A stretch of DNA of 64,000 bases from positions 1 to 64,000 of the forward strand of contig NZ_FOKK01000005.1 of NCBI RefSeq assembly GCF_900112005.1, written 5' to 3'. Below the pieces are notes generated by a model that was not told where the DNA came from, made no database searches, and saw nothing but the letters and a program-made list of their open reading frames with translations. Source of the DNA: Algoriphagus aquimarinus. GTDB lineage: Bacteria > Bacteroidota > Bacteroidia > Cytophagales > Cyclobacteriaceae. This document shows positions 52,314 to 57,067 of this stretch, in pieces. The stretch's first letter is position 1, and each line of letters starts with the position of its first letter. The position numbers were made by a program, and so were the translations under genes.

Positions 52314-53005
52314 TTCAAGTTACTAACCTGAAAAAACAATATAAAGAAACAGTTGTCCTAGATGTGGAGAAACTGGAAATCCCAAAATCTGAGTGCTTTG
52401 GGTTGGTGGGGAATAACGGAGCTGGAAAAACAACCCTGTTCAGGATTATGCTTGATCTCGTACGAGCAACCGAAGGAAAAGTGGAAATCGATTCTAGGGA
52501 TGTAAGTAAATCTGAAGAATGGAAGAGAACGACAGGAGCTTATCTGGATGAGCATATGCTCTTGTCCTACCTGACGGCAGATGAGTATTTCCAGTCCCTA
52601 CGCAAAATTTATGGTTTATCAGAAGCTGATTTGCAACTTCACCTTGGCAAGTTTACTGAGTTCTTTAACGATGAGATTGTAGGGAAAAAGAAATACATCC
52701 GAGATCTGTCCAAAGGTAATTTGAAGAAGGTAGGTATAGCCGCTGCACTTATGGGGGATCCTGATGTAGTGTTCTTGGATGAGCCGTTTGAAAATTTGGA
52801 TCCAAGTTCTCAGATACGATTGAAGAAATTGATTCTTCAAGTAAAAGAAGCGTCTCAAGTTACTTTTTTGATTTCCAGTCATGATCTGAATCATGTAACG
52901 GAAATTTGTGATCGTATAGTTTTATTGGAAAAAGGTAAGATTATCAATGATTTGAGAGATAGATCGGCCATGCTCGCTGAGCTGGATGCTTATTTCACTG
53001 GGTAA
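52310..53005 (+). CDS. ABC transporter ATP-binding protein, partner of the DUF5687 permease
   Basis: A 231-residue ATPase with Walker A GNNGAGKTTLFRIM, signature in DLSKGNLKKVGIAAAL (Ser-Lys-Gly), Walker B VVFLDEPFENLD and ISSHDLNH as the H-loop. The DEPFENLDPSSQ sequence in place of the usual DEPTxGLD is typical of this Bacteroidota group. It is translationally coupled to the permease. A second, deletion-damaged copy of this gene lies 500 bases downstream. Confidence 0.92.
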   Translation: MIQVTNLKKQYKETVVLDVEKLEIPKSECFGLVGNNGAGKTTLFRIMLDLVRATEGKVEIDSRDVSKSEEWKRTTGAYLDEHMLLSYLTADEYFQSLRKIYGLSEADLQLHLGKFTEFFNDEIVGKKKYIRDLSKGNLKKVGIAAALMGDPDVVFLDEPFENLDPSSQIRLKKLILQVKEASQVTFLISSHDLNHVTEICDRIVLLEKGKIINDLRDRSAMLAELDAYFTG

Positions 53006-53020
53006 ATGGATTTGGAATAG

Positions 53021-53377
53021 TCACCGTAGGAAAAAAGTTACATCGTCACAGACCCTTATTGTCTTGGATAAGATGCAACCTTTAAAAATGTATTCTCCTG
53101 GCTGACTCCCTTTGAATTTCTGAAGAGATGAGATCCTTCCTGCCTTTCCGGTTACCTCCTCTGTAAACACCACTTGACCATTGACTTCCCAAATCATATC
53201 CCATTTGTTGGTGGGAGGGAGGCCTCTGACCACAAGCAAAAGTCCAACACTGTCTTGGAAACTTTGATTAGGCCCTCCAATCACGCTTACCTCTTCCACA
53301 GTATAATCAGACGGTTCTGGCGGAATAATATTGCAGCCAAATAGAACTAAAAAAAGTAGAGGTAGCATTTTCACCAT
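53021..53377 (-). CDS. Small lipoprotein of unknown function
   Basis: A 118-residue predicted lipoprotein (LFLVLFGCNI) from ATG 53377; an in-frame start further upstream (53473) would add 32 residues before the signal peptide and is unlikely. The mature part looks beta-rich: VSVIGGPNQSFQDSVGLLLV, WEVNGQVVFTEEV and GEYIFKGCILSKTIRVCDD with two cysteines that may pair. It sits, reversed, between the DUF5687/ATPase pair and its decayed copy. No family recognised. Confidence 0.65.
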   Translation of the reverse strand: MVKMLPLLFLVLFGCNIIPPEPSDYTVEEVSVIGGPNQSFQDSVGLLLVVRGLPPTNKWDMIWEVNGQVVFTEEVTGKAGRISSLQKFKGSQPGEYIFKGCILSKTIRVCDDVTFFLR

Positions 53378-53509
53378 GCTATGACTCGAATTAAGCTTGT
53401 TTGCACGTAAAATGATGAGCATGGAGGAAGGTGAATTTGTTGACCAAAGAAATAAGAATTGTGGTAAAAACAAAAAAAACTCTCCGTTGATTTAGAGAGG
53501 TCTTTTTGT

Positions 53510-53928
53510 GGAGCCGCACAGTTTCTAATGATTATACCGATGATGTTGCTTCGGATTAGTGGGGAACAATGGTGCCGGTAAAACAACTTTGTTTAGAATA
53601 ATGCTCGACCTTGTTCGTGTTACTCATGGAAAAGTGGTAATCGATTCCAGGGATGTGAGCAAAACTGAAGAATGGAAAAGAACTACCGGAGCATATTTTG
53701 GATGAGCCGTTTGAGAATTTGGATCCCAGTTCTCAGATACGGTTGAAGAAATTAATCCTTCAAGTAAAAGAAGCGTCTCAAGTCACTTTTTTGATTTCCA
53801 GTCATGATCTGAATCATGTCACGGAGATTTTTGACCGCATCGTACTGCTTGAAAAAGGTAAGATTATCAATGATCTGAGAGATAGGCCAGCTACGCTCGC
53901 TGAGCTGGATGCTTATTTTACGGGTTGA
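53510..53928 (+). pseudogene. Decayed tandem copy of the DUF5687 permease/ATPase pair
   Basis: Three blocks match the upstream operon in order. 53510-53551 matches the permease at about 52094-52135; about 53552-53697 matches the ATPase N-part at about 52396-52545; 53698-53928 matches the ATPase C-part from the Walker B region to the stop. The permease 3' end and the middle of the ATPase are lost. The second junction falls on TGGATGAG, which occurs at both edges of the missing segment (52545-52552 and 52776-52783). The middle block differs mainly at synonymous sites, so the copy was functional before it broke. A 76-residue ATPase C-terminal peptide remains open from a TTG but lacks the Walker A and signature parts. 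Confidence 0.88.
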
Positions 53929-54072
53929 GTTATCGAGCTGAAAATCTTTTTATTTGTTGGAATAAGGTTAAACTATAAAGAGCCTCGACATTTCTCGGCC
54001 ACCGGGTTTGTGTGGTTTAGAAGGACGGGGATAGGTTTTATAGCCAGTCTGATTTTGGCAGACTTCTGTCGG

Positions 54073-54102
54073 ATGGTCTATCGAGCGCAGTCGAGATGCC
54101 AT
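54073..54102. repeat. ATGGTCTATCGAGCGCAGTCG dispersed-type repeat
   Basis: An imperfect palindrome around TCGAGCGCAGTCGA, ending GATGCCAT. It is a form common between genes of Flavobacteriia and Cytophagia; one copy was seen here. The rest of 53929-54330 shows no gene. Confidence 0.5.
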
Positions 54103-54336
54103 CTTAATTAAATTGTGCCCTCAATGTAATCCTTGGCTAGTGAGCCTGTCTAACGCCAAGTGGTCCTGCTGATCTACTATGCTCCTCAGTTTAAAAAACC
54201 TGTTCATTTTAGCTCGTCAAGTGAACATATACTAAGAAAAGCTACTATTTCTGGACAAGGCTTGAGTACATGTCCATTTTTATTAAAAAATTGGATATGT
54301 GCTAGTTGTGTACCTATTTTCTGGACATATAATAGC

Positions 54337-54371
54337 AACATGTTCATATTAATAAATAATATGAACATGTT
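54337..54371. promoter_or_regulatory. Perfect 14-bp inverted repeat upstream of the Fic-domain gene
   Basis: Arms AACATGTTCATATT and AATATGAACATGTT flank AATAAAT. A further half-site CATGTTCAT lies at 54380-54388, next to the promoter, and looser TGTTCATT / GTGAACATA sites occur at about 54205-54231. Position suggests an operator for autoregulation by the winged-helix Fic protein. Confidence 0.75.
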
Positions 54372-54396
54372 ATTTATGTCATGTTCATTTATTTGG

Positions 54397-54404
54397 TAAA
54401 TTTG
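54397..54404 (+). promoter_or_regulatory. -7 promoter box TAAATTTG of the Fic-domain gene
   Basis: TAAATTTG matches TAnnTTTG, 22 bases before the ATG and just after the CATGTTCAT half-site. Confidence 0.65.
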
Positions 54405-54426
54405 GACGTTATAAACGAAGTATTCT

Positions 54427-55539
54427 ATGCCGTACGACCAAAATATTCCCTTTAATGACCTGCCATTCCTTCCCGTGTCCAAGGAAGTGGAAGAGGATAT
54501 TACAGTTCTGAAAAAACTGGTAACTGCATCGAGGGCATTGGCCTCTGTGAATGCGAGTGTACTTCGTTTGCCCAATCCAACGATGCTGGTGAATACGATA
54601 GCGTTGCAGGAAGCAAAAAGTTCTACTGCTATTGAGAATATTTTCACGACAGAAGAGGAGTTGTATAAGGCTGTTTCTGACTTAATTCAGGAAGAAAGAG
54701 CGGACTCGGCGACAAAGGAAGTACTACGATATAGAGAGGCACTTTGGGAAGGATATGCAACGATGAAAGACAAGTCTAGGATCAATCAAGAAGTGATCTT
54801 GGGTGTATTTAGAGAAGTGAAAAACACGAATGCAGGCATTAGATCTCCTGCTACACAAACGATTATCAAGAGAGGAAATAGTGAGTTTCGATCAGGGGAG
54901 ACAGTTTATACACCACCGAGAGGAGAGAAGATACTTCAGGATTTAATGGATAATTGGACGGAATATCTCGGGAACGACACAGATTTCCCTACTGATCCGC
55001 TGTTGAAAATGTGTATTTCCCATTATCAATTTGAAGCGATTCTCCCATTTGCAGATGGAAATGGGAGAACTGGCAGAATATTGAATCAGCTTTACTTGGT
55101 CAATAAAAGGCTTCTGGATCTTCCAGTGCTGTATCTATCCAAGTATATCATTGTCCACAAGGAAGACTACTATTATCATCTTGGCGCAGTGACTCAGCGA
55201 GGAGACTGGAAGTCTTGGATCTTATTTATGCTGGAAGCGGTGGAGAAAACGTCCAAATTGACAGAGGACTTGATCCATGAAATCATCGTGCAGATGGAAG
55301 CTACTTTAGCCCATGGTAAATCAAAAATCAAGTGGTATTCGAAAGAGGTCAACGAGCTGATTTTTTCACAACCTTATCTCAAGTCAAAAACACTTGGTGA
55401 GCTGATGGGAGTGAGTTCCAGAACAACTTTGACTAAGTATTTCTCAGAGTTGGCGGAGGCGAAAATTCTCTTTCCTAAGAAGGATGGTAAGGAGGTGTAC
55501 TACGTAAATGAAGAGCTTGTCAGAATTTTAGGGGATTAA
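54427..55539 (+). CDS. Fic-domain protein with C-terminal winged helix, catalytic His replaced
   Basis: A 370-residue protein of the SoFic-like group. The N-terminal region carries the inhibitory motif STAIEN (Ser66-Glu70-Asn71) of class II Fic proteins. The Fic core is at about 110-245. The active-site loop reads ILPFADGNGRTGR, where the standard motif is HPFADGNGRTGR: the catalytic His is Leu206 (CTC at 55042-55044; His would be CAC). The Arg and Gly of the phosphate-binding part are kept. The C-terminus (about 310-370; TLGELMGVSSRTTLTKYFSE) is a winged-helix DNA-binding domain. An inverted repeat with a promoter is upstream. AMP transfer should be abolished; a purely regulatory role is plausible. 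Confidence 0.9.
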   Translation: MPYDQNIPFNDLPFLPVSKEVEEDITVLKKLVTASRALASVNASVLRLPNPTMLVNTIALQEAKSSTAIENIFTTEEELYKAVSDLIQEERADSATKEVLRYREALWEGYATMKDKSRINQEVILGVFREVKNTNAGIRSPATQTIIKRGNSEFRSGETVYTPPRGEKILQDLMDNWTEYLGNDTDFPTDPLLKMCISHYQFEAILPFADGNGRTGRILNQLYLVNKRLLDLPVLYLSKYIIVHKEDYYYHLGAVTQRGDWKSWILFMLEAVEKTSKLTEDLIHEIIVQMEATLAHGKSKIKWYSKEVNELIFSQPYLKSKTLGELMGVSSRTTLTKYFSELAEAKILFPKKDGKEVYYVNEELVRILGD

Positions 55540-55541
55540 AA

Positions 55542-55569
55542 AAGTCCCTCCAAACGCTCAGAGGGACTT
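55542..55569. terminator. Bidirectional terminator between the Fic-domain gene and the efflux operon
   Basis: Perfect 9-bp stem AAGTCCCTC / GAGGGACTT with a 10-base loop. The minus strand has the better T-run, so it mainly ends the efflux operon. Confidence 0.88.
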
Positions 55570-55627
55570 TCGAAAATGCTATCCATACCATTAAATGGAT
55601 AGACGTTCAACCTTTAATCAACCAATT

Positions 55628-57067
55628 CTATTTCCAACCGCCACCAAGGGCTTGGTAAATATTTACTTTGGCATTCATTTGTTTCATCTTAGTTTCAATC
55701 AAGTCGAATCTAGATTCCAGTGCATCTCTTTGTGTCAATAGAACTTCCATATAATCTGCTCTTGCTGAATTGAAGAGCTCAGTAGAAATGTCAACTGATT
55801 GAGTAAGGGCTTGTACTTCCTGGGACTTCAAGTCATAGGTTTTTTCCAAATTGCTGATGTTGGATAGCTGATTTGCTACTTCTATATAAGCGTTTAAGAT
55901 GGTTTGCTCATAGTTGTAAATTGCCTGAATCTGCTTAGCGTTAGCCATCAAATACCTCGCTTTTATCGCATTTCTATTAATCAGAGGAGCTACCAGTTCA
56001 CCGGTAAGTGAATAGATCAGCGACTGAGGAGAAGTGAATATGTAGCTTGGGTTAAAAGCATTATAACCAAGACCTGCTTTGATCTCCAAGGAAGGGTAGA
56101 AGTCAGCTTTGGCTACATTGATGTCAATCTTAGAAGCCGCTAACTCTAGCTCAGCTTGTCTGATATCAGGTCTGTTTGCCAATAATTGAGAAGGAATACC
56201 TGCATGGATTGTTTCTGGAATTAGTTCTCCAAATGCATTTGCATCCCTTTCTACCTTCTGTGGGAATCTACCTACAAGAAAGTTGATTCTGTTCTCGATT
56301 TCTATGATATCCTGCTGTATGCCAAATTGAAGACTCTTAGTGTTCAGTACCTGAGCTTCAAATCTGCGTACTGCCAATTCGGTAACTCGTGCAGCTTGCT
56401 TTTGGTATTTCACTATCTCGTAAGCATTGTTTTGAATCTCAATGTTCTGCTTGACGATGTCAAGTTGATTGTCAAGAGCCAGCAGCTCATAATAGGAATT
56501 GGCGATCTCTGAAATCAGATTGGTTACCATGAAGTTTTTGCCTTCTACACTGGCCAAATACCTGGTCATTGCAGATTTTTTAGCATTACGCAGCTTGTGC
56601 CAAATATCGACTTCCCAAGTAGCGTAGGCTCCCAGCATGTAGTCTTGCAGCGGGTCAGGCATTTCTTTACCTGGCTTGATGTCAGTATTTGCATCATTCG
56701 CGCCTTGACTGGTATATCTACCTACTTTGTCTACTCCAGCTCCAGCTCCCAGACCAACAGAAGGAAGAATCTCACCTTTGCGGACTCTTACTTCATTTTG
56801 GGCTATCTGAATTTCCTGTAATGTAATATTCAACTCCTGATTGTTGCTCAAGGCAGTGTCAATCAGAGCTTTCAAGTATGGATCGGAAAAATAATCCATC
56901 CATACTACGTTTGCCGCTGTATTTGTAGAATCCTGAGAGCTATTAGAATAGCTCTCAGGTACTGCGTCATTTACGTTTTTTTGTATTAGCTCAGGAGTTT
57001 TGCAACCAGACACTGCTAGTGTGATAGCCGTCGCTCCTAAGCATATATATATGATTCTCTTAAGCAT
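55628..57067 (-). CDS. TolC-like outer-membrane efflux lipoprotein (NodT/OprM type)
   Basis: A 479-residue outer-membrane factor that completes an RND pump. It has a lipobox (LAVSGCKTP), and the two-fold OEP repeats are evident, with long coiled helices (ELNITLQEIQIAQNEVRVRK and YIEVANQLSNISNLEKTYDL) and the conserved LLANRPDIRQAELELAASK. The start MLKRIIYICLG is preferred; an in-frame extension to 57109 would translate the end of the pump gene in another frame. It overlaps the RND stop by 8 bases. Confidence 0.93.
   Translation of the reverse strand: MLKRIIYICLGATAITLAVSGCKTPELIQKNVNDAVPESYSNSSQDSTNTAANVVWMDYFSDPYLKALIDTALSNNQELNITLQEIQIAQNEVRVRKGEILPSVGLGAGAGVDKVGRYTSQGANDANTDIKPGKEMPDPLQDYMLGAYATWEVDIWHKLRNAKKSAMTRYLASVEGKNFMVTNLISEIANSYYELLALDNQLDIVKQNIEIQNNAYEIVKYQKQAARVTELAVRRFEAQVLNTKSLQFGIQQDIIEIENRINFLVGRFPQKVERDANAFGELIPETIHAGIPSQLLANRPDIRQAELELAASKIDINVAKADFYPSLEIKAGLGYNAFNPSYIFTSPQSLIYSLTGELVAPLINRNAIKARYLMANAKQIQAIYNYEQTILNAYIEVANQLSNISNLEKTYDLKSQEVQALTQSVDISTELFNSARADYMEVLLTQRDALESRFDLIETKMKQMNAKVNIYQALGGGWK

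Follow-up and report, generated by a model that had tools for sequence, protein, structure and literature searches.

A SoFic-type Fic gene of Algoriphagus with a private His-to-Leu change and an upstream half-site array that follows the recognition helix across the family

A SoFic-type Fic gene in the 64,000-nucleotide stretch of Algoriphagus aquimarinus DNA analyzed here (the window) encodes a protein with leucine in place of the catalytic histidine and is preceded by an array of eight exact half-sites. The explanation we favor, with reasonable confidence, is that this gene is an Algoriphagus SoFic orthologue recently disarmed by H206L that has kept its fold and winged helix, and that the enzyme of this family probably controls its own gene through the array.

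The open reading frame at 54427-55539 (+ strand) starts with ATG and encodes 370 amino acids with no internal stops, bearing out the initial annotation of an open, full-length frame. Its assignment as a SoFic-type Fic gene draws on the frame itself, Pfam, PADLOC, and a structure match. Pfam placed Fic_N at residues 28 to 110, Fic at residues 147 to 224, and SoFic-like_C at residues 301 to 364 (55327-55518, + strand), all above the curated cutoffs, and the C-terminal winged helix, also seen in the AlphaFold2 model, was correctly described as intact. PADLOC named the protein SoFic (329.8 bits), and the best solved structures by sequence were protein adenylyltransferase/SoFic entries. The AlphaFold2 model (mean pLDDT of 82, with residues 67 to 92 poor) matched the fold of SoFic 3zcn over its whole length (Z of 38.1; 346 aligned residues; 2.4 Å). 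The NCBIfam SoFic equivalog NF046030 matched the window protein at 359.7 bits, below its cutoff of 550, and we therefore place the protein in a distant subfamily of the SoFic kind; all 18 members of alignment A2, the window protein included, matched this model at an E value of ≤0.001. The N-terminal inhibitory motif, (S/T)xxxE(G/N), is present as STAIEN at residues 66 to 71 (54622-54639, + strand), as first read. Alignment and model together predict that the recognition helix of the winged helix is SRTTLTKYFSEL, residues 331 to 342 (55417-55452, + strand). Four further Fic-domain matches were observed in the same genome (G000:C27, C37 [two], and C24).

At codon 206 (55042-55044, + strand), where the catalytic His is expected, the window has CTC, or Leu, and the active loop reads FEAILPFADGNGRTGR. 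The same codon is CAC in all five nearest orthologues (88 to 95% identity), in agreement with the single-base change from CAC to CTC that the initial annotation had proposed. Residues 206 to 217 of the loop (55042-55077, + strand) are intact apart from Leu206, as had also been stated. With that residue, the loop, LPFADGNGRTGR, departs from the Fic signature HxFx(D/E)GNGRxxR, and we therefore file the protein as a SoFic-family descendant and not as a working member. Among 87 distinct full-length homologues, which are the best matches to the window protein among the loci listed and not a random sample, 86 have His at residue 206, and the window protein alone has Leu. Broken copies (L050, L014, L015, and L052), a copy at a contig end (L053), and one with an internal stop (L021) had been dropped before this count. 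The His bearers include six Algoriphagus orthologues (78 to 95% identity), and no His-less clade was found among the homologues listed. Because nearly all of these homologues carry His, Leu206 is not a clade trait, and its conservation in a clade, for which an alignment of homologues had been suggested, is ruled out. Breaks of any kind in the Fic signature were found in 3 of the 87 homologues, and all three were different. Those other than the window's are private to two SoFic-type proteins, L112, with Asp to Ala (HPFPAGNGR), and L034, with Arg to Gly (GNGG).

AMP transfer is very likely lost in the window protein, because by analogy with characterized Fic enzymes the signature His is critical for deprotonation of the target hydroxyl (PMC3667792) and the H194A form of EcSofic is called catalytically dead, colony numbers not being cut by it, unlike by the wild type (PMC12249575, section 2.1). 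It is very improbable, indeed the most remote of the readings considered here, that Leu206 instead leaves another activity, such as deAMPylation or binding of an AMPylated target, making the protein a changed enzyme and not a dead one. In favor of this, the protein retains the inhibitory Glu and an otherwise unaltered signature loop, and in CbFic2, whose tested variants included H205A, deAMPylation relies on that Glu (PMC10628234); however, none of the other homologues among the 87 has Leu at this position. The allele is most likely an ordinary loss-of-function mutation that disarmed an AMP-transferase recently.

Pairwise dN/dS against the window gene was 0.02 to 0.04 in four of the five nearest-orthologue pairs (those for which it was computable), indicating strong constraint on the gene for nearly all of its history, and H206L is therefore either recent or an error. 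A strain-specific mutation or sequencing error had been named as the alternative to a repurposed Fic scaffold, and it has become the better reading. An error of a single base in sequencing or assembly, the real protein being an ordinary His206 SoFic enzyme, would be consistent with a change of one base private to one assembly and with the strong purifying selection on the gene. However, the window protein also has Gln at codon 5 (54439-54441, + strand) and Glu at codon 77 (54655-54657, + strand), two positions at which all 30 other proteins of its class carry Arg and Asp, respectively. R5Q, D77E, and H206L are thus private changes at three sites that do not vary among those 30 proteins, and no such change is seen in any of the five closest orthologues. 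The share of private changes falling at invariant sites was 3 of 6 in the window protein versus 0 of 29 in the orthologues (Fisher's exact test chosen post hoc; P = 0.003), and the difference remains when H206L itself is left out (2 of 5 versus 0 of 29; 10/561 = 0.018). The adjoining TolC gene shows no excess of private changes in the window (7, versus 7 to 13 in the others), which likewise argues against error; the ABC neighbor, which weighs the other way, also has 4 (0 to 5 in the others). The breakage or loss of related loci in the genus, described below, again points to a real allele. We therefore regard the constraint on the window protein as apparently relaxed from the departures at R5 and D77, favor a genuine relaxed allele over a sequencing error, and consider the error unlikely. 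Position 77 of the window aligns with Asp77 of PDB 9vjc, which from its residue numbering we infer to be EcSofic, and by the same numbering it would correspond to EcSofic D77 of the interface with the C-terminal domain. In EcSofic, D77 bonds to Y306 of that domain, and the interface mutants Y306A and R308A largely relieve toxicity (PMC12249575). D77E is, however, a conservative substitution.

Upstream of the gene, the alternating half-sites TGTYCA and TGRACA form a predicted operator array (54201-54427). Their exact copies number 8 in 270 bp, whereas dinucleotide shuffles gave a mean of 0.41 and a maximum of 3 in 300, and the array is far from chance. From its distal end, the array consists of half-sites TGTTCA at -226 (54201-54206, + strand) and TGAACA at -205 (54222-54227, - strand), paired units TGGACA-N13-TGTCCA at -175/-156 (54252-54276) and TGGACA-N13-TGTTCA at -105/-86 (54322-54346), and half-sites TGAACA at -65 and TGTTCA at -45, 20 bp apart (54362-54387). 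Alignment further revealed an eroded unit, TGGATA/TACCTA, at -135/-116 (54292-54316) and an eroded half-site, TGGACG, at -24 (54403-54408, - strand), where the five nearest orthologues read TGGACA. Within the array lies a perfect 15-bp inverted repeat (54337-54371), so the possible operator of the initial annotation was understated, the repeat being one part of an eight-half-site array. Its promoter fared less evenly: a consensus match is present, but the sigma-70-like sites in 54100-55700 were not clearly in excess (7, versus 4.4 in shuffles; standard deviation of 2.2). The element TAAATTTG (54397-54404, + strand), seen in sequence and alignment, overlaps the half-site at -24 and resembles TAnnTTTG, which we take to be the Bacteroidota -7 box. 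No Rfam family matched at gathering scores in 53000-55700. The ABC gene is separated from the array by a lipoprotein-like open reading frame (53021-53473, - strand); frames related to it were observed in L039, L040, and L052 and were not found in the other eight loci searched.

Half-site distances from the start codon match within a base across six gene-bearing Algoriphagus loci (the window, L036, L037, L009, L038, and L039), defining a grid at -226, -205, -175, -156, -135, -116, -105, -86, -65, -45, and -24, with -5 in one locus. Each of the six loci lacks some of these half-sites, and up to 11 are present in an orthologue. The recurrent pair is TGRACA-N13-TGTYCA, with N14 at -65/-45, the half-sites standing on a 19/21-bp grid, and the left members of pairs are spaced 30 or 40 to 41 bp apart, close to whole helix turns. 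Over the six loci, columns were invariant at 46 of 65 positions of the half-site core (a set that includes the grid places -186, with a half-site in none of the six loci, and -5, with one in a single locus) versus 33 of 149 spacer positions (P = 2 × 10−11), and in most pairs of the Algoriphagus orthologues compared, synonymous positions are close to or beyond saturation. Searching 117 genomes for the double-unit pattern with up to 3 mismatches returned 11 genomes, all of the same genus. Eight of these hold real-looking arrays (six fic loci, G021, and G067), and the matches in G028, G064, and G026, which have 2 to 3 mismatches and hardly any half-sites besides, appear fortuitous. The window array itself gave no double-unit match within 3 mismatches.

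Across the SoFic-type family, the half-site word follows the recognition helix. In 250-bp stretches upstream of 87 genes, the excess of a single word over shuffles averaged 1.83, compared to 0.40 in 61 control stretches, which lie upstream of other genes and come from loci L036 to L055 only (Mann-Whitney P = 2 × 10−12). In a blind word scan, which has little power at the level of one locus, 39 of the 87 stretches beat all 20 shuffles versus 2 of the 61 controls. Counted as genes that carry the word at least twice, the pairings are SRTT, the helix class of the window protein, with TGTYCA (30 of 31 genes), AENTA with TTAAKGT (28 of 30), AEKTA and KTxG both with GGTAAA (2 of 2 and 6 of 7, respectively), KRQTA with TCGACA (7 of 9), and NTAKK with TGACAG (2 of 2). 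In the two AENTA-class exceptions (L103 and L104), Ala or Gly replaces the helix Asn, as was noticed post hoc. Among 46 representatives sharing less than 75% identity, 41 had the word of their own class and 5 did not, against a mean of 11.5 and a maximum of 21 in 5,000 label permutations, and wrong words gave 1 positive in 184 cells; these counts are to be read with the words having been chosen on the very loci then counted, with the sample being one of best matches, and with the classes being mostly clades, so that independent switches are few. Six additional full-length genes, whose helices fall outside these classes, have none of the five words twice. Away from the stretch just upstream of fic, whether downstream or farther upstream, these words are rare, except in the KRQTA class, in which three of eight genes were observed to carry at least two TCGACA half-sites downstream as well. 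Despite their unrelated words, the SRTT, AENTA, and KRQTA classes are dominated by opposed pairs at 19 (to 20) and 21 to 22 bp, while KTxG arrays are spaced at 17 and 23 bp and NTAKK arrays at 18 and 21 bp. Such a pairing would amount to a code that links helix to half-site and so far comprises five words.

The pairing also recurs across branches of the family tree. In a tree of residues 1 to 295, which excludes the winged helix, L102 (AEKTA and GGTAAA) groups with two AENTA/TTAAKGT genes (100/97), and the KTxG/GGTAAA clade stands apart across a 100/98 branch. The lysine and GGTAAA have therefore come together at least twice. Before 11 loci outside Bacteroidota were fetched, we fixed the prediction that KRQ helices would go with TCGACA. 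Both intact KRQ genes agreed with it, Rhizobium lusitanum L137 having three sites and Pantoea L139 four. The former is 86% identical to L107 of the set from which the rule was derived, and therefore only Pantoea L139 (56%) counts as a fresh lineage. Of the remaining fetched loci, L138 has a stop, leaving its helix unread, and four sites; eight loci with other helices have 0 to 2 TCGACA sites, among them L145, whose two sites are an unpredicted positive. Four ATGGTAA sites upstream of Ilyobacter L141, with the helix TRKTM, were noticed post hoc.

These patterns bear on whether the array is read by the Fic protein or by another factor, such as a host or defense-island regulator. Related loci of the genus are often broken or deleted: the same gene is frameshifted in Algoriphagus oliviformis (L050, 5001-6102) and lacks its 5′ part at this place in A. 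alkaliphilus (L052, 5001-5717), L082 (7800-8200; G021:C1 near 3888032) has no fic between the corresponding ABC and TolC neighbors but an almost intact array, and L083 (G067:C53 near 18760) has no fic beside the same TolC gene and a decayed array, perhaps as a later stage of the same loss as in G021. Persistence of the array in G021, in whose genome no close fic reader for this orphan array was found, would favor a reader other than Fic. Compared to AGSA1, the G021 array has changes in 5 of 55 half-site and 24 of 121 spacer positions, resembling those of a fic-bearing pair (5 of 55 and 27 of 121), and its persistence may reflect recency as well as selection. Against another reader, half-site and Fic recognition helix change together, including beyond Bacteroidota, and Lys preceding Thr in the helix is paired with GGTAAA on separate branches of the tree and, post hoc, with GGTAA in Ilyobacter. 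We consider another reader quite unlikely. Tracking of the recognition helix by the operator arrays suggests, from sequence comparison, that the SoFic-type family at large, its His-bearing members included, likely consists of DNA-binding regulators.

The initial annotation had further suggested that the window protein is a Fic scaffold kept as a DNA-binding regulator. That part of the idea which concerns DNA binding appears to hold for the family at large; the part in which a His-less form is kept by selection as a pure regulator does not, and we judge it highly improbable. The frame, winged helix, and eight array half-sites are intact, and the regulatory and toxic activities of CccR, a Fic protein of Yersinia, are described as independent (PMC9755527), as this reading would have it. 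Nevertheless, Leu is found in none of the 86 relatives, the proximal half-site at -24 is eroded in the window, and exact TGRACA-N13-TGTYCA units occur only twice in the 5.1-Mb assembly, both within this array. Exact units being confined to its own promoter, no wider regulon is therefore seen in this assembly; with up to one mismatch allowed, 48 sites were found, compared to 40 for a reversed control pattern, and nothing stands out.

Under the preferred explanation of a recently disarmed, self-regulating SoFic, a Fic dimer would use its two C-terminal winged helices to read the opposed half-sites that cover the promoter and, once bound, would repress its own transcription; EcSofic is dimeric in solution (PMC12249575). 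Such autorepression may keep a toxic enzyme scarce until it is needed, with repression presumably relieved during infection. The H206L protein has most likely lost the ability to modify or poison its target, and by analogy with CccR the window allele should remain able to bind its own promoter and repress it, but unarmed. The codon, its privacy, the array with its conservation, and the covariation of half-site with helix are observed, whereas we infer that the protein is inactive, binds DNA, acts as a repressor, and is released from the promoter in infection. In Escherichia coli, a separate small antitoxin of 47 amino acids encoded downstream, AS1, counteracts Sofic (PMC12249575), and control by an array alone is therefore not the rule there. 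No AS1-like antitoxin gene lies directly downstream in the window, where 88 bp separate the fic stop (55539) from the TolC gene, which ends at 55628, and 47 codons would not fit; this agrees with promoter-based control here, without proving it. A broader proposal is possible, if on balance doubtful: SoFic-type AMP-transferases in general would read their own operator arrays with a near-fixed dimer geometry and a fast-evolving helix, coating the promoter, the array being a built-in control, beside or instead of a separate antitoxin, and this control would be lifted when a phage takes over host DNA or transcription, and the window allele would be a natural "regulator-only" mutant. Autoinhibition of Sofic is said not to hold fully and its mechanism of activation to be unknown (PMC12249575, discussion). 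A self-matched operator array would offer a testable transcriptional answer to how Sofic stays harmless before infection and is set off during it, and the Leu206 allele would provide a naturally occurring protein that may uncouple regulation from catalysis.

In the open-licence literature on Sofic and Fic autoregulation, operators, and promoters, the titles and abstract openings among the matches listed mention no arrays upstream of SoFic genes, and CccR is the one self-binding Fic among them; the array upstream of SoFic appears to be new, while a self-binding Fic is already known from CccR. CccR of Yersinia pseudotuberculosis is, like the window protein, a class II Fic with a C-terminal helix-turn-helix and inverted repeats in its own promoter. 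It binds those repeats via the helix-turn-helix, and autorepression has been shown for it, a reporter rising 3.3-fold on deletion (PMC9755527). Autoregulation in the window would resemble that of CccR but act through a multisite array: CccR, which is a T6SS effector, has one pair of 10-bp repeats with a 26-bp spacer, in contrast to the 8 exact half-sites on a 19/21-bp grid in the window (PMC9755527). CbFic2 of Coxiella burnetii resembles the window protein in its domain makeup, a Fic domain with a DNA-binding winged helix-turn-helix; its binding was measured on random DNA, with no specific operator in the text, where DNA binding by SoFic is given as undemonstrated as of 2023 (PMC10628234). BepC/Bep8 of Bartonella (PMC8401265) and Fic2 of Campylobacter fetus (PMC5651007) have, as described in those reports, also lost a signature residue on a kept fold; they belong to other Fic classes and have lost other residues, whereas the window has a private allele at His. 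Closest of all are SoFic (SO_4266; PDB 3eqx/3zcn and 9tb0) and EcSofic (PDB 9vjc), antiphage class II Fic AMP-transferases with which the window protein shares its domain order, inhibitory motif, and whole-length fold, and from SoFic it differs in having Leu for the catalytic His and an SRTT instead of a KRQTA recognition helix.
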